Shown here one piece after another: positions 3,006 through 54,130 of a stretch of DNA of 64,000 bases (its first letter is position 1; every line of letters begins with the position of its first letter). Origin of the DNA: Prevotella sp. (GTDB lineage: Bacteria; Bacteroidota; Bacteroidia; Bacteroidales; Bacteroidaceae); assembly GCA_017470345.1 (NCBI GenBank), contig JAFUEP010000005.1, positions 42,257 through 106,256 of the forward strand, read 5' to 3'. The notes under the pieces were generated by a model, which saw only the letters and a program-made list of their open reading frames with translations, had not been told where the DNA came from and did not search any database. A program made the position numbers and the translations under genes.

Positions 3006-3120
3006 CTGATTATCAGCTTTTTGCGCCTCTGCTTTTGGCGAAGCGGTCCTTTTTCCTCCGAGAAGCGGTCCTTTTCGATGCGAGAAGCGGTCCTTTTTGC
3101 CCCGAAAAGCGGCACTTCTT
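3006..3120. repeat. AAGCGGTCCTTTT array with CTGATTATCAG end motif, copy 1
   Basis: CTGATTATCAG at 3006-3016 is followed by four spaced copies of an AAGCGGTCCTTTT-like unit, the last in the variant AAAGCGGCACTTCTT. The same arrangement occurs at 22674-22788, 40511-40626 and 54014-54130, always between genes. Adjacent units can pair as hairpins. Origin and function are unknown. Confidence 0.8.
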
Positions 3121-13263: not shown

Positions 13264-13329
13264 AAGCGGTAGCAAATTTTTCACTCTTCGAGCGGTAGCA
13301 AATTTTTCACTTTTCACTCTTCACTCTTA
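13264..13329. repeat. AGCGGTAGCAAATTTTTCAC word repeat between ompH genes
   Basis: AGCGGTAGCAAATTTTTCAC occurs twice (13265 and 13291), followed by TTTTCACTCTTCACTCTT. The GCGGTAGCAAA core is the one found in the palindromes at 27997-28099 and 43114-43281. The run ends at the stop of the next ompH gene. Confidence 0.8.
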
Positions 13330-13331
13330 CT

Positions 13332-13870: not shown

Positions 13871-13973
13871 CTTTTCATTCTTCATTTATCACTTTCTAAG
13901 CGGTAGAAAATTCTTCACTTATCACTTTCTAAGCGGTAGCAAATTTTTCACTTTTCACTCTTCACTTTTCCCT
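13871..13973. repeat. AGCGGTAGCAAATTTTTCAC word repeat between bamA and ompH
   Basis: TTTCTAAGCGGTAGAAAATTC and TTTCTAAGCGGTAGCAAATT are followed by TTTTCACTCTTCAC words up to the bamA stop. Same core as 13264-13329. Confidence 0.8.
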
Positions 13974-22673: not shown

Positions 22674-22788
22674 CTGATAATCAGCACGATTACGAAATGA
22701 GAAAAAAGAAGCGGTGCTTTTCGATGAGAGAAGCGGTGCTTTTTGATGAGAAAAGCGGCACTTCTCTTGACGGGAAGTGCCGCTTTGG
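22674..22788. repeat. AAGCGGTGCTTTT array with CTGATAATCAG end motif, copy 2
   Basis: CTGATAATCAG (22674-22684), a 24-nt spacer, then AAGCGGTGCTTTT units. The last two units are opposed and form a hairpin (AAAGCGGCACTTC / GAAGTGCCGCTTT, ending 22788). In reverse complement the tail aligns closely with copy 4 at 54 kb. It could act as a terminator for the DUF3108 gene. Confidence 0.8.
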
Positions 22789-27597: not shown

Positions 27598-28275
27598 TCA
27601 GACGAGGTAGAAGATGGCTTCGGGCCCCATGTTGAACAGCAGGTCGAGGATCGACAGGTTGGGCAGGAAGCCATGCCGCTGCTCGAACACCTGCCAGTAG
27701 CGGCGCGGCTGGAAGTCAGCATCGGGCAGCGGGTGCTTGGGGTTGATCGTATCGCGGAAATCGATGAAATCGCCGTTTTTTGAATATTCCGTCGTCGGTT
27801 TAATGTCCGGATGAATGTCGAGCAGGCGGCACATTGTGCGGCAGATGTCGGCGTTGAAGTCGGTGAGCCGCTCCCATCGCCGCTCGGTGAAGAAGGGCCG
27901 CAGGTCGTCCTCGTAGTATTCGAAGAAGGGCGAGTCGCCGTAGGCCGTCTGCAGGGCCTGCCAGTGGAGGTGGCGCCAGTTGCCGTGGTCGCTGATGAGT
28001 GTAGAGTGTATAGTGTAGAGTGAAGAGTTTGCTACCGCAGCAGACGTGGCCTGTAGGGCGGTAGCAAACTCTCCATTCTCCATTCTCCATTCTCCACTCC
28101 TGACTGGCACGGTCAGCGCCTGCACGCCTTGCGTCGAGGCGATGAGGCAGCGGTTGCGGTAGGTCTGTTTCTGGAACGACTCGCAGTGCTCGATCAGCAC
28201 GCGGTCGTAGCGGCAGAGCTTCTGGTACCACTGTATGGGACCGAAGTAGGTGGTGGAGAGCAGGCAGGTGGTCAT
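27598..28275 (-). CDS. WbqC-like family protein with an in-frame palindromic-element insertion
   Basis: 225 residues. WbqC-family landmarks are YFGPIQWYQKLC at the N-terminus, ESFQKQTYRNRCLI, QALTVPV, WRHLHWQALQTAYGDSPFFE and DFQPRRYWQVFEQRHGFLPN near the end. The family is linked to surface polysaccharide or glycolipid loci; the reaction is not established. Residues about 60-93 (GEWRMENGEFATALQATSAA and on to STLI) are not part of the family: they are the translation of a 103-bp palindrome between QALTVPV and SDHGNWRHLHW. The start overlaps the stop of the SPase-like gene by 4 nt. Confidence 0.85.
   Translation of the reverse strand: MTTCLLSTTYFGPIQWYQKLCRYDRVLIEHCESFQKQTYRNRCLIASTQGVQALTVPVRSGEWRMENGEFATALQATSAAVANSSLYTIHSTLISDHGNWRHLHWQALQTAYGDSPFFEYYEDDLRPFFTERRWERLTDFNADICRTMCRLLDIHPDIKPTTEYSKNGDFIDFRDTINPKHPLPDADFQPRRYWQVFEQRHGFLPNLSILDLLFNMGPEAIFYLV
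27997..28099. repeat. GTTTGCTACCGC palindrome inside the WbqC-like gene
   Basis: On the minus strand: GAGTGGAGAATGGAGAATGG words, then GAGTTTGCTACCGC, a 19-nt centre (CTACAGGCCACGTCTGC), GCGGTAGCAAACTC, then TCACTCTACACTATACACTC words. The core is nearly identical to that at 43114-43281 and is read in the same frame. Confidence 0.92.
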
Positions 28276-31489: not shown

Positions 31490-31655
31490 CACGCAGTAAG
31501 GGATGATCCCCTTTGGGATGAGGAAGTTAGAGACCCCTGCCCCTCGGAGGGGAGTAAGGTTAGTCCTTTCCACATGGAGGGGAGTGAGGTCAGTCATAGC
31601 ACTTCGTGCTTGACACTCATCCTTTTTATAGAATAGGTAATCAATATGGTGATAA

Positions 31656-31827
31656 ATGCCCGAGATTTCAACGCCCCCCTGCCCCCCTCTAATCTTAGAG
31701 GGGGAATTGGATAGCGTGCATGCCGCCCGCCTACGCTGGTGTCGCTGCGCTCATCTGCCCCTGCGGTGGTATCCAGCTCCCCCTCTAAGATTAGAGGGGG
31801 GCAGGGGGGCGTTGAAATCTCGGGCAT
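31656..31827. mobile_element. MITE-like element with 50-bp perfect inverted arms, copy 1
   Basis: The arm beginning ATGCCCGAGATTTCAACGCC (31656-31705) is repeated as its exact reverse complement at 31778-31827. The 72-bp centre includes CGCTGGTGTCGCTGCGCTCA. A second copy with the centre reversed lies at 32827-33000, on the other side of the gene 31876-32820. No transposase is present, so the term MITE is an inference. The short frame inside it is not a credible gene. Confidence 0.85.
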
Positions 31828-31875
31828 ATATATTATAAAATAGGAATTAATAACAAATAAAAAAAGACTGAGAAG

Positions 31876-32826: not shown

Positions 32827-33000
32827 TCAACGCCCCCCTGCCCCCCTCTAATCTTAGAGGGGGAGTTGGTTACCACCGCAGGAGCAGATGAGCGCAGTGA
32901 CACCAGCGGATGGGGGCGGCGTGCACGCTATCCAACTCCCCCTCTAAGATTAGAGGGGGGCAGGGGGGCGTTGAAATAGGGGGGCGTTGAAATCTCGGGA
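32827..33000. mobile_element. MITE-like element, copy 2, opposite orientation
   Basis: Perfect 42-bp inverted arms (32828-32869 and 32932-32973) begin CAACGCCCCCCTGCCCCCCT. The centre (CACCGCAGGAGCAGATGAGC and on) is the reverse complement of the centre of copy 1 with a few changes. The right end carries a short duplication of GGGGGGCGTTGAAAT. It starts 7 nt after the FabK-like stop. Confidence 0.85.
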
Positions 33001-40510: not shown

Positions 40511-40626
40511 CCAAAAAGCGCCGCTTCTCGCGCCAAAAAGCACCGCTTCTCGACTCGAAAAGCGGCACTTCTCTCCCCGAAAAGCACCGCTTCTCAAAAC
40601 GGGATTTGCAGGTGCCTGATTATCAA
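40511..40626. repeat. AAGCACCGCTTCTC array with TGATTATCA end motif, copy 3
   Basis: Four AAAAAGCACCGCTTCTC-like units (40511-40596), a spacer, and CTGATTATCA at 40617-40626. It fills the gap between the second receptor gene and cobJ-cobH. Confidence 0.8.
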
Positions 40627-40674: not shown

Positions 40675-42072
40675 ATGAAGATCTACATCGTTGGCATCGG
40701 CCCCGGCTCGCCCGAGGACATCACGCCCGCCGCCGTCAGTGCGCTGGGCGCGAGCGACGTCGTCGTGGGCTATAAGTACTACTTCCAGTTCATACGGCCC
40801 TACCTGAAGCCCGCGGCCGAGTGCATCGACACGGGCATGAAGCGCGAGCGCGAGCGGGCCGCACTGGCCTTCGCCCAGGCCGCCGCGGGCCGCACGGTCA
40901 GCATCATCTCGAGCGGCGATGCGGGCATCTACGGAATGGCCCCGCTCATGTTCGAGATGCGGCGCGACGAAGGCCTCGACGTCGACCTTGAGGTCGTCCC
41001 CGGCATCAGCGCCTTCCAGAAGGCCGCCGCCCTGCTCGGCGCGCCCATGGGCCACGACTTCTGCGTCGTCTCGCTCAGCGACCTCATGACGCCCTGGGCC
41101 GTCATAGAGCGCCGCATCCGGGCGGCCGCCCAGGCCGACTTCGTCACGGCAGTCTATAACCCCCGCTCCAACGAGCGCTACTGGCAGCTCGACCGCCTGC
41201 GCGAGCTCTTCCTCGAGGAGCGCAGCGCGCTGACGCCCGTGGGCTATGTGCGCCAGGCGGGCCGCCCCGAGCAGCAGGTGGTCACGACGACGCTGGCCGA
41301 CCTGAACCCTGAGGCCATCGACATGTTCACCGTCGTCATCATCGGCAACTCGCAGACCTATGTATCTGACAATCGGATGATTACGCCGCGCGGCTATTAT
41401 CGCGACGCAGCCAGTGCCGACGTCAAGCCCGGCCAGCAGATCATGATGGAGTCGTTCCGCACCATCGCCGCCGAGCTCCGCCGCCATGACTACCCGACGG
41501 ACCACCTGTGGGCGCTGCTCCACGCCATCCACACGACGGCCGACTTCGACATGGAGCGCATCCTCTACACCGACCCCCTGGCCGTCGAGCATCTTTATGA
41601 TAAGGTGCGCGAGGGCTCGCTCCGCACCATCGTCACCGACGTCACGATGGTCACGAGCGGCATCCGGAAGGGTGCCCTGCAGCGGCTGGGCGTCGAGGCA
41701 AAGTGCTATCTGGCCGACCCCCGCGTGGCGGAGATGGCTGCCTGCGAGGGCATCACGCGCACCCAGGCTGGCATCCGCCTGGCCGTCGAGGAGCATCCCG
41801 ACGCCCTCTTCGCCTTCGGCAATGCGCCGACGGCGCTGATGGAGCTCTGCACCCTCATCCGCCGCGGCAAGGCCCGCCCCGCCGGCATCATCGCCGCCCC
41901 CGTCGGCTTTGTCCACGTCTGCGAGTCGAAGCACATGGTGAAGCCTTTCCGCGACATCCCCAAGATCATCGTCGAGGGCCGGAAGGGCGGCTCCAACCTC
42001 GCCGCCACCCTCTGCAACGCCATCCTCTGCTATGACGACGCGGCGCAGCTCCGCCCCGGCCGAGATCTCTGA
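40675..42072 (+). CDS. cobJ: CobJ-CobH fusion: precorrin-3B C17-methyltransferase and precorrin-8X methylmutase
   Basis: 465 residues in two domains. Residues 1-240 are a SAM-dependent corrin methyltransferase of the CbiH/CobJ type (IYIVGIGPGSPEDITPAAVS; SIISSGDAGIYGMAPLMFEM; EVVPGISAFQKAAALLGAPM). Residues about 255-455 are CbiC/CobH, which moves the C11 methyl to C12 (LLHAIHTTADFDMERILYTD with the catalytic His; TDVTMVTSGIRKG; CESKHMVKPFRDIPKIIVEG; GGSNLAATLCNAIL). Such fusions occur in Bacteroidales. It begins the biosynthetic half of the locus. Confidence 0.93.
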   Translation: MKIYIVGIGPGSPEDITPAAVSALGASDVVVGYKYYFQFIRPYLKPAAECIDTGMKRERERAALAFAQAAAGRTVSIISSGDAGIYGMAPLMFEMRRDEGLDVDLEVVPGISAFQKAAALLGAPMGHDFCVVSLSDLMTPWAVIERRIRAAAQADFVTAVYNPRSNERYWQLDRLRELFLEERSALTPVGYVRQAGRPEQQVVTTTLADLNPEAIDMFTVVIIGNSQTYVSDNRMITPRGYYRDAASADVKPGQQIMMESFRTIAAELRRHDYPTDHLWALLHAIHTTADFDMERILYTDPLAVEHLYDKVREGSLRTIVTDVTMVTSGIRKGALQRLGVEAKCYLADPRVAEMAACEGITRTQAGIRLAVEEHPDALFAFGNAPTALMELCTLIRRGKARPAGIIAAPVGFVHVCESKHMVKPFRDIPKIIVEGRKGGSNLAATLCNAILCYDDAAQLRPGRDL

Positions 42073-42130
42073 CGGCCGGGGGGGCGGCCGCCGGCTTCCC
42101 CCCGCCGCGCCCCCGCCGCGAGGTCGATAT

Positions 42131-42167
42131 TCCGTTATTTCGTTATTTCGTTATCCCGTTATCCCGA
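42131..42167. repeat. TTCCGTTATTTCGTTATTTC word repeat
   Basis: Tandem CGTTATTTCGTTATCC words in the gap between cobJ-cobH and cbiE-cbiT, ending about 9 nt before the start codon at 42176. Confidence 0.7.
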
Positions 42168-42175
42168 AGAAAAAA

Positions 42176-43516
42176 ATGAAATTCAACATTATTGGCATTC
42201 CTGACCGGCCGGAGCCGTTCTTTCCCCCGGAGGTCGCCGAGGAGATCAGCCGCGGGCGGATCTTCTCGGGCGGACGGCGCCATCATGAGCTGGTCGGACG
42301 GCTGCTGCCGGCGGGCGCACGATGGATCGACATCACCGTGCCGCTCGACGAAGTCTTCGCGCAGTATCGGCAGCTGGGCGACGAGGCGCAGGTGACCGTC
42401 TTCGCCTCGGGCGACCCGCTGTTCTTCGGCTTTGCCAACACGATCCGCGAGCGCATGCCCGAGGCCGCGGTGCAGCTCTTCCCGGCCTTCAACTCGCTGC
42501 AGATGCTGGCCCACCGCCTTGTGATGCCCTATCACGACATGCGCATCGTCTCGCTGACGGGCCGCCCCTGGCCCGACTTCGACCGCGCCCTCATCGAGCG
42601 CACGGCGAAGATCGGCGTCCTGACCGACCGTGAGCACACGCCCGCCGCCATCGCCCGCCGCATGGCGGACTATGGCTTCACCGACTATCGCATGCACGTC
42701 GGCGAACATCTGGGCCACCCCGACCGCGAGCGGCTAACGACCCTCACCCTCAGCGAGGCGGCCGCGCATGAGTTCAGCCAACCCAACTGCCTGATCCTCG
42801 AGGCCACCGCCGCCCCGAGCCCGCGGCCGTTCGGCATCCCCGACAGCGACTTCGCCCTGCTCGACGGTCGAGAGCGGATGATCACCAAGATGCCCATCCG
42901 CCTGCTCTCCCTGCAGGCCCTCGACCTCAGTCGGCGCCATGTGCTCTGGGACATCGGCTTCTGCACGGGCAGCATCAGCATCGAGGCCCGCCTGCTGTTC
43001 CCTCACCTGCGCATCGAGGCGTTCGAGATCCGCCCCGAGTGCGAGGCCATCATCCGCGACAACATGCGCCGCCACCACGCCCCCGGCATCGCCGTCCACA
43101 TGGGCGACTTCTTGAGTGTAGAGTGTAGAGTGGAGAATGGAGATAGTGTAGAGTGGAGAGTGGAGAATGGAGATAGTGTAGAGTGTAGAGTGGAGAATGT
43201 AGAGTTTGCTACCGCTCTACAGGCCACTTCTACAGCGGTAGCAAACTCTACACTCTACACTCTACATTCTACACTACACTCCCCCGACGCCGTCTTCATC
43301 GGCGGCCACGGCGGCCACCTCAAGCAGATCATGGCCAAGGTGGCCTCATGCCTCGCCCCCGGCGGCGTCATCGTGATGAACAGCGTCACGCCCGCCAGCC
43401 GCCAGCTCTTCGCCGAGGCCTGCGCGGAGCTGGGCTTCCGCCAGCTGCCCACCATGCATATTGCCCTCAACGACTATAACCCCATCGACATACTGAAATG
43501 CGAACAGCCATCATAA
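42176..43516 (+). CDS. cobL: CbiE-CbiT fusion (CobL-like): cobalt-precorrin-7 C5- and cobalt-precorrin-6B C15-methyltransferase, with an in-frame palindromic insertion
   Basis: 446 residues from the ATG at 42176; upstream in-frame sequence belongs to the previous gene and a word repeat. Residues 1-205 are CbiE (VTVFASGDPLFFGFANTIRE; FPAFNSLQMLAHRLVMPYHD). Residues about 235-446 are CbiT (WDIGFCTGSISIEARLLFPH SAM motif; PDAVFIGGHGGHLKQIMAK; GGVIVMNSVTP). Between HMGDF and PDAVFIGG, residues about 313-368 are the translation of a 168-bp palindrome (for example VEFATALQATSTAVANSTL). The same peptide occurs in the WbqC-like protein. The gene stays open. Overlaps the next gene by 19 nt. Confidence 0.92.
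   Translation: MKFNIIGIPDRPEPFFPPEVAEEISRGRIFSGGRRHHELVGRLLPAGARWIDITVPLDEVFAQYRQLGDEAQVTVFASGDPLFFGFANTIRERMPEAAVQLFPAFNSLQMLAHRLVMPYHDMRIVSLTGRPWPDFDRALIERTAKIGVLTDREHTPAAIARRMADYGFTDYRMHVGEHLGHPDRERLTTLTLSEAAAHEFSQPNCLILEATAAPSPRPFGIPDSDFALLDGRERMITKMPIRLLSLQALDLSRRHVLWDIGFCTGSISIEARLLFPHLRIEAFEIRPECEAIIRDNMRRHHAPGIAVHMGDFLSVECRVENGDSVEWRVENGDSVECRVENVEFATALQATSTAVANSTLYTLHSTLHSPDAVFIGGHGGHLKQIMAKVASCLAPGGVIVMNSVTPASRQLFAEACAELGFRQLPTMHIALNDYNPIDILKCEQPS
43114..43281. repeat. GTTTGCTACCGC palindrome inside the cbiE-cbiT gene
   Basis: Arms of GAGTGTAGAGTGGAGAATGG-type words (43114-43205) and CTACACTCTACACTCTACAT-type words (43247-43281) flank a core: GAGTTTGCTACCGC, 19-nt centre (TCTACAGGCCACTTCTAC), GCGGTAGCAAACTC. 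The core differs from that at 27997-28099 only in the centre. The left arm is longer here, with repeated GAGAATGGAGATAGTGTAGA. Confidence 0.93.
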
Positions 43517-54013: not shown

Positions 54014-54130
54014 CAAAAAAGCACCGCTTCTCGGCCAGAGAAGCGGTGCTTTTCTGCTCGAAAAGCGGCACTTCTCTCCTCGAAAAGCACCGCTTCTTTT
54101 TTGTCGTTCCGTAAATGTGTTGATTATCAG
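54014..54130. repeat. AAGCACCGCTTCTC array with TGATTATCAG end motif, copy 4; terminator-like
   Basis: Two opposed units make a perfect hairpin (AAAAGCACCGCTTCTC / GAGAAGCGGTGCTTTT, 54018-54053), followed by two more units, then TTTTTTGTCGTTCCGTAAAT and TTGATTATCAG to 54130. The tail after the last unit aligns with the reverse complement of copy 2 over about 40 nt. The hairpin with its T-run could terminate the upstream regulator transcript. Confidence 0.8.

Follow-up and report, generated by a model that had tools for sequence, protein, structure and literature searches.

The window, by which we mean the whole stretch of 64,000 nucleotides of Prevotella DNA that was analysed, carries one palindromic element in the genes of two unrelated proteins. 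The first host is a WbqC-like gene (PF08889; 27598–28275, minus strand) with an ORF of 225 aa, and the second is the cbiE-cbiT gene for the precorrin methyltransferase fusion CbiET (42032–43516, plus strand) with an ORF of 494 aa. Both ORFs are open across the element and read it in one frame, as the earlier note had described; the resulting peptides are EFATALQATSAAVANSSLYTIHSTL in WbqC and EFATALQATSTAVANSTLYTLHSTL in CbiET. The element of the WbqC-like gene occupies 27998–28098 on the minus strand, and its 101 nt are composed of a 30-nt arm, an 11-nt core arm, a 19-nt centre, an 11-nt core arm, and a 30-nt arm. On the plus strand, its left core arm TTTGCTACCGC is at 28028–28038, the variable centre at 28039–28057, and the right core arm GCGGTAGCAAA at 28058–28068. 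The canonical 101-nt element of cbiE-cbiT lies at 43175–43275 on the plus strand, with the same left core arm at 43205–43215, the 19-nt variable centre at 43216–43234, and the same right core arm at 43235–43245. It is preceded by two additional left-arm units of 30 nt each (43115–43174; TRF period 30, 3.0 copies, 94% matches), and because 30 is a multiple of 3, the frame and its openness are kept. The runs of complementary words reported to flank the core correspond to the arms of about 30 nt, which are built of 7-nt words.

The window has just two matches of the pattern GTTTGCTACCGC-N19-GCGGTAGCAAAC (28027–28069 and 43204–43246), and 100 dinucleotide shuffles of it have none; together with the reversed-pattern control, the shuffles rule out a chance origin of the pair. 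The 19-nt centres of the two copies, compared on the gene strand, have four differences, in agreement with the approximate count given before. Folded as single strands, both hairpins are better than all 200 of 200 shuffles, with z-scores of −4.95 and −10.1. Single right arms also occur between genes: two AGCGGTAGCAAATTTTT units followed by 7-nt words at 13266–13330 (plus strand) between two minus-strand genes, and further right arms, one of them degenerate, again followed by 7-nt words at 13900–13968 (plus strand). An Rfam scan of the window gave nothing at the elements and returned only a cobalamin riboswitch (RF00174; 33200–33403, plus strand, 75.3 bits), which is located a few kb upstream of the cobalamin genes.

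The genome to which the window belongs is an assembly of 2.67 Mb in 68 contigs and is 61.6% complete. It contains eight exact hairpins, of which the CbiET copy accounts for two (one each on contigs C47 and C31). Exact single arms number 42, compared with none for the reversed control pattern. The genome-wide search for the core, which the earlier note had proposed, hence reveals a larger family than was reported there. The CbiET region as such is present twice, on C31 (14 kb) and C47, which is probably assembly redundancy or a strain variant. An exact hairpin was found in eight of 100 genomes of the genus, and in a family-wide sample in four of 121 genomes and two of 30 genera. The palindrome family is found in Prevotella and one sister genus. 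Among named genome contigs, at least 110 stretches have the hairpin; 79 of the 80 titled stretches listed are Prevotella, Prevotellaceae, Bacteroidaceae, or Bacteroidales, mostly rumen metagenome-assembled genomes (MAGs), and the sole outsider is a Lachnospiraceae bin whose hairpin lacks word arms. The isolate Prevotella communis E15-14, a rumen commensal, is among the listed carriers. On its complete chromosome, a 381-aa ORF has a full copy in frame (record position 1615794–1615901) and two further ORFs have half-copies in frame (near 2640049 and 3086102), and the element is therefore not confined to MAGs. The hairpin pattern had no matches in viral contigs.

A profile (A1) was made from the alignment of 23 element peptides and searched against the 100 genus genomes, with matches in at least 26 of them. 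Among the 87 places listed, after removal of the contig duplicate, a frame of 200 aa or more is free of stops at 66 (16 of them in the window's genome) and reached only with a stop at two; the other 19 have short or stop-bearing frames. The opposite strand of the open places never forms a stop-free frame of at least 200 aa in the 48 cases where it was listed.

A full copy of the element measures about 95–115 bp and consists of an arm of about 30 nt made of 7-nt words, TTTGCTACCGC, a centre of 12–30 nt, GCGGTAGCAAA, and a complementary arm of about 30 nt; half-copies are also present. The arm words are of three types, which are CTCTAC-like, TTCTT-like, and T5. The 124 de-duplicated hairpins had their flanks scored by codon usage. 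Their flanking genes are convergent in 63 cases, divergent in four, and on the same strand in 57. In the convergent copies, stop codon and element edge are a median of 0 nt apart, and 103 of 107 distances fall between −35 and +40 nt. Intergenic positions, chiefly between convergent genes, account for the majority of exact hairpins. The element was initially described as an in-gene one, and this holds for the two unrelated proteins but not for the family, which is not solely intragenic. An intrinsic terminator would have a G+C stem followed by a T-run at a gene end. Many intergenic copies have T-runs beside the stem on both sides, and these copies are probably two-way transcription terminators. 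A terminator pattern scan of one intergenic copy gave no match; the scan admits loops of 3–8 nt only, a limit that excludes these hairpins. The orthologous spacer of loci L031, L089, L153, and L076, downstream of a gene which we take to be fabF-like, has a word-armed palindrome in all four. Since the one in L076 has different words and a different core, the class of word-armed palindromes extends beyond this family.

For the reading frame, 120 hairpins were measured, 24 genic and 96 non-genic; the remaining four were left out for their short flanks. The 24 genic copies are all stop-free in phase 0 (TTT GCT ACC GC), compared with 12 of the 96 non-genic exact hairpins. They are not independent of each other, since AsnB is a host in two species, one RsmF-like gene has two copies, and genomes contribute several each. 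The 24/24 is also partly circular because the presence of an open frame (an open ORF on the same strand and in the same frame) entered into the classification; the copy L075 was assigned on its 720-aa open frame. Phase 0 is stop-free in four of the 39 non-genic copies lacking a T5 right arm. The centre length is 1 mod 3 in 24/24 genic and 28/96 non-genic copies (Fisher p 4e-11). As the element is palindromic, a centre of this length puts both core arms in the same phase. The other two frames, inspected in 23 copies, have stops in 23 (frame 1) and 22 (frame 2). The in-gene peptides follow the pattern S-ECR-E--EFATA-(5–9 variable residues)-AVANSTLYTLHSTL. A common left-arm word type would bring TAG in the coding phase, and the in-gene copies have an altered word there. 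CTCTAC-like words are on both sides in 19 of the 24 in-gene copies. T5 words are on both sides in 51 of the 96 non-genic copies, and on at least one side in 65/96 compared with 0/24 genic exact hairpins; a T5 arm is nevertheless present in some degenerate in-gene copies, such as L298 of P. communis. In the 34 same-strand non-genic copies, the stop of the upstream gene is at −24 to +58 nt from the element edge, just within it or close by, where the flank is usable, as expected after a gene end. Genes broken by the element itself were not recognised among these 34, as judged by stop position. The genic copies are thus not mostly frame-breaking, a point on which the idea of in-frame insertion could have failed: all 24 are stop-free in one phase, and 66 of the 87 A1 places listed have an open frame of 200 aa or more. 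The ArgS-like gene at L149 is interrupted upstream of the element as assembled, and for this reason it is not an example of an intact enzyme.

These data bear on whether the insert reaches the protein at all. It could be removed or skipped by mRNA splicing, ribosome bypass, or protein cleavage, for which a strong hairpin within conserved enzymes, folding better than each of the 200 shuffles, might speak. Removal, however, would put no demand on the frame or on the length of the centre. The frame is nonetheless open and the centre 1 mod 3 in 24/24, and the nine sites compared between near-identical genomes (below) all differ by multiples of 3. Since frame and stops would vary freely if the insert were removed, we regard removal as extremely unlikely, and splicing or bypass is rejected on the evidence of frame and stops.

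The 24 genic copies are in 23 ORFs of unrelated Pfam/NCBIfam families. The hosts are MenC-type, M24 peptidase, WbqC, CbiET, class I/II aminotransferase, ABC transporter, fucosidase, abhydrolase, GH43, GH95, LeuA/CimA-type, serine dehydratase, BT1, patatin, RecG, AsnB (two species), a TPR protein, RsmF-like (one gene with two copies), MFS, peptidase M3, a flavodoxin fusion, and ArgS-like. Ten further hosts in the window's genome are DUF6055, GH106, GH88, ArgC, glycyl-radical activase, TolC-type, RNase R, ClpA, a periplasmic-binding/AraC fusion, and an epimerase. In ten of the first 23 ORFs, one Pfam match extends across the element. The AsnB insert of about 31 residues takes the place of the single residue 185 of E. 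coli AsnB (1ct9) in the alignment, and the element site of WbqC is a loop of varying length among orthologues. The added surface loop suggested previously is a possible reading that these alignments of WbqC and AsnB support. The peptide common to unrelated proteins can create false homology between them and is hence a risk for annotation; it did so in one comparison here. Other inserts occur in the same hosts. The AsnB of L114 (at two places) and CbiT of genome G022 have in-frame inserts reading PSPKGEG or SMGEGLGVRL, which presumably represent yet another repeat type, and one AsnB has three inserts relative to 1ct9, palindrome included.

Orthologues of both window proteins lack the segment, and distant WbqC or CbiET proteins carrying it, which would have spoken against insertion, were not seen: the element is absent from 29 of the 29 other aligned WbqC rows and from the 12 other genomes whose CbiET row covers the region. 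CbiET of genome G013 has an A1 profile match elsewhere, between its two domains, and the CbiT of G022 has a different short insert. The closest genome, the MAG RUG12472 (G128), is 95–98% identical to the window. The comparison with it covered nine in-gene sites, a tenth having no match in the stretch examined and six others being outside the comparison, and at each of the nine the length difference is a multiple of 3. The epimerase gene provides a clean empty site: 108 nt are missing from G128 between flanks that are 98–99% identical. A MITE of a DDE transposon would have terminal inverted repeats with a target-site duplication. The arms of the element are inverted repeats; the junction bases of this site, the best of the empty ones, differ between the two genomes, with no clear target-site duplication, and therefore neither a duplication nor a consensus target can be read. 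At the WbqC site, G128 has an unrelated in-frame palindrome, CCCCCTCCAACC...GGTTGGAGGGGG, which is 33 residues long where the window's genome has 35. The in-frame insertion that had been proposed is supported overall but is too simple for WbqC, because G128 does not have an empty site there. CbiET of G128 has the left half-element alone and is 123 nt shorter, the glycyl-radical activase has the right half-element alone and is 57 nt shorter, and RNase R has 30 nt more arm in G128. In the M24 peptidase gene, the centre is inverted (96% identity inverted versus 44% direct), which changes about eight residues in frame. The copies in the TolC-type, ClpA, and binding-protein/AraC genes are common to both genomes.

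The comparison with G128 also showed repeats of other kinds. The palindrome at its WbqC site (L275) belongs to a second, G+C-rich family (CCTCCCCC..TGGGGG), which is also present at L091, L077, and L155. A repeat of about 150–190 bp, forming an inverted pair in the window (31641–31831 and 32827–32977), has well over 20 other matches in G128 and is a dispersed family separate from the palindromes. Tandem repeats of 22 bp (e.g. CCAAAAAGCACCGCTTCTCGCC) are located at gene ends at 40514–40595, 3040–3112, 22707–22758, and 54017–54097 of the window; the array at 40514 matches about 20 places in G128.

Orthologous hairpin pairs reveal how the centre changes. Where the flanks are at least 93% identical (n = 9), the centre is direct in five pairs, inverted in three, and different in one; where they are 77–85% identical (n = 12), it is different in 11 and direct in one, while the core arms persist. 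The counts at these 21 pairs indicate fast turnover of the centre with lasting core arms. The centre is exactly inverted in one more pair, L123 and L135, which has one flank truncated. Between non-orthologous copies, about half of the centres are direct and about half inverted, which is uninformative because the orientation of insertion is arbitrary; the counts above are therefore confined to orthologous sites.

One could read these changes as those of a useful coding cassette, neutral to orientation and keeping the frame, whose centre is flipped or replaced to vary enzyme loops deliberately between cells. The three of nine centres inverted at high flank identity, the 11 of 12 unrecognisable at lower identity with core arms kept, the altered residues of the M24 peptidase, and the unrelated palindromes at one WbqC site in two near-identical genomes all agree with such a cassette. 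The hosts, however, are mainly housekeeping or catabolic enzymes and not surface antigens; inverted centres are open in 21 of 24 copies, which is not above the shuffle expectation (mean 18.8, sd 2.0); and intergenic copies invert too (L001 versus L078), as function-free replication at hairpins would give. We therefore find deliberate variation quite improbable. A broader, chromosome-wide form, in which fixed loop positions of many housekeeping proteins serve as landing sites for interchangeable, frame-neutral peptide cassettes, unrelated palindromes swap, and centres flip, so that the dynamics of DNA hairpins diversify loops without gene breakage, is slightly less so but still improbable.

How the copies reached their sites was considered in two ways besides transfer of the element by a route of its own. 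Firstly, transposition may be dispensable: the 7-nt words would expand by slippage, and hairpins would arise locally and repeatedly. Core-free arrays of 7-nt words are common according to TRF, CbiET displays the expansion of units, and the ArgS-like gene has a full hairpin in L149 where L080 has a plain array. Conversely, the 11-nt core is found again and again with its inverted partner, in unrelated genes and in many species, different loci of one genome have similar centres, and the whole 108-nt element is missing from a near-identical relative at the epimerase site, so that local origin is very unlikely. The array of L080 is a plain in-frame (CAATTCT)n. As for the centres, those of the WbqC, CbiET, and aminotransferase copies are similar in the window's genome, and so are many of the 20 hairpins of genome G102; centres being often alike across the loci of one genome indicates copying within genomes.

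Secondly, the element may be a REP/REPIN-type sequence mobilised by a RAYT, that is, a Y1 tyrosine transposase. REPINs have inverted arm pairs, single arms, and genome-specific subfamilies, all of which the element shares, and weak, partial Y1_Tnp matches (E 1e-7 to 4e-4) are present in five of the seven element-bearing genomes searched. Full or near-full Y1_Tnp matches (E <1e-11), however, are restricted to five of the nine element-free genomes among the 16 searched, several of which are incomplete MAGs, and the element-bearing G023 and G101 have no Y1_Tnp match. The GTAG of the element sits inside the paired core, and the stem has no GTAG or CGTC tag at an unpaired end. We give this explanation a very small chance, and since Y1_Tnp does not track the element across the 16 genomes, RAYT/Y1 is not supported as the mobiliser. 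A transposase for the element was not found.

The element is quite likely a Bacteroidota counterpart of the Rickettsia palindromic elements (RPEs), with an open frame selected in genes and probably two-way terminators between genes. In this model, elements would spread into many sites. An insertion into a gene would survive only if it leaves the frame open and adds its peptide to a loop that tolerates it, and ribosomes would translate through the element. The peptide in the host proteins is most likely neutral ballast. Hairpin formation and template switching during replication may account for the inversion of centres and the matching of arms. The best-known examples of in-frame coding palindromes are those of Rickettsia and Wolbachia, and discussions often treat them as a trait of endosymbionts whose genomes decay. 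A comparable system is now available in abundant free-living gut bacteria, and P. communis E15-14 is a cultured carrier with a complete genome. Between near-identical genomes, copies are gained, shortened, or expanded, have their centre inverted, or are matched by an unrelated palindrome in the same place; therefore, the entry of selfish DNA into conserved enzymes becomes testable, and so does the question whether inserts supply new protein segments.

No description of this element was found in the open-access literature searched, which omits most subscription papers, and within this scope the earlier statement that a Bacteroidota counterpart had not been described is upheld. REP, BIME, and REPIN repeats with their RAYT transposases (PMC3733652; see also PMC2817692) are likewise short palindromes often downstream of genes, occurring as single arms and inverted pairs, with some intragenic units reported; PMC3733652 in part lists CGTC-type REPs in Bacteroidetes and covers intragenic REP units in general. 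REPs have, in the same part of PMC3733652, a GTAG or CGTC tag at the unpaired end, whereas the Prevotella element has no tag, long arms of 7-nt words, and no RAYT association found. The BrickBuilt MITE of Porphyromonas gingivalis is also from Bacteroidota and is a small dispersed element mostly of short tandem units, but its units are of 23 nt and it is always intergenic in the sections of PMC4596501 that describe it. Excerpts of PMC2229807 present the Correia/NEMIS and enterobacterial RU repeats as MITE-like. In Neisseria, they describe a 107-bp open form fused to genes and a 155-bp stop-bearing form nearly always intergenic, which parallels the Prevotella forms; the terminal TA target duplication and transposon-like ends described in these excerpts are not seen in the Prevotella element. 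PARCEL, as far as the excerpted text of PMC2996958 goes, is palindromic DNA coding for a repeated peptide and apparently mobile as well, but its units are 25-residue domains in tandem, located in ORFs of no assigned function, many of which have membrane-targeting sequences, and are not single loops in conserved enzymes. The coding palindromes of Nematomorpha mitochondria are, in part of PMC6649704, also perfect inverted repeats translated in genes; their arms encode conserved parts of the host protein, whereas the Prevotella palindrome is an added segment.

The closest likeness is to the RPEs (RPE-1 to RPE-3 and others) and the Wolbachia palindromic elements, described in parts of PMC2229807 and PMC3767692. 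The RPE parallel drawn in the earlier note is sustained at the level of size, hairpin, and location features: both systems are about 100–150 bp in length, form hairpins, have many copies that are intergenic as well as in frame in unrelated conserved proteins, and lack the insert in orthologues outside the group. For RPE-4, RPE-6, and RPE-7, the partial accounts place other element groups near the same place in orthologues, comparable to the WbqC site here. A passage of PMC2229807 reports that the insert of Rickettsia guanylate kinase is translated and the protein active. The Prevotella element differs from the RPEs in phylum, in its free-living gut hosts, in its arms of 7-nt words, in a centre that inverts and turns over, in the single phase of the 24/24 exact-arm copies, and in its intergenic copies lying mostly between convergent genes, at stop codons. 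Judged by sequence, what is known is the in-frame coding palindrome of RPE type, and what is new is a Prevotella system with word arms, centre inversion, a single phase, and a location between convergent genes.
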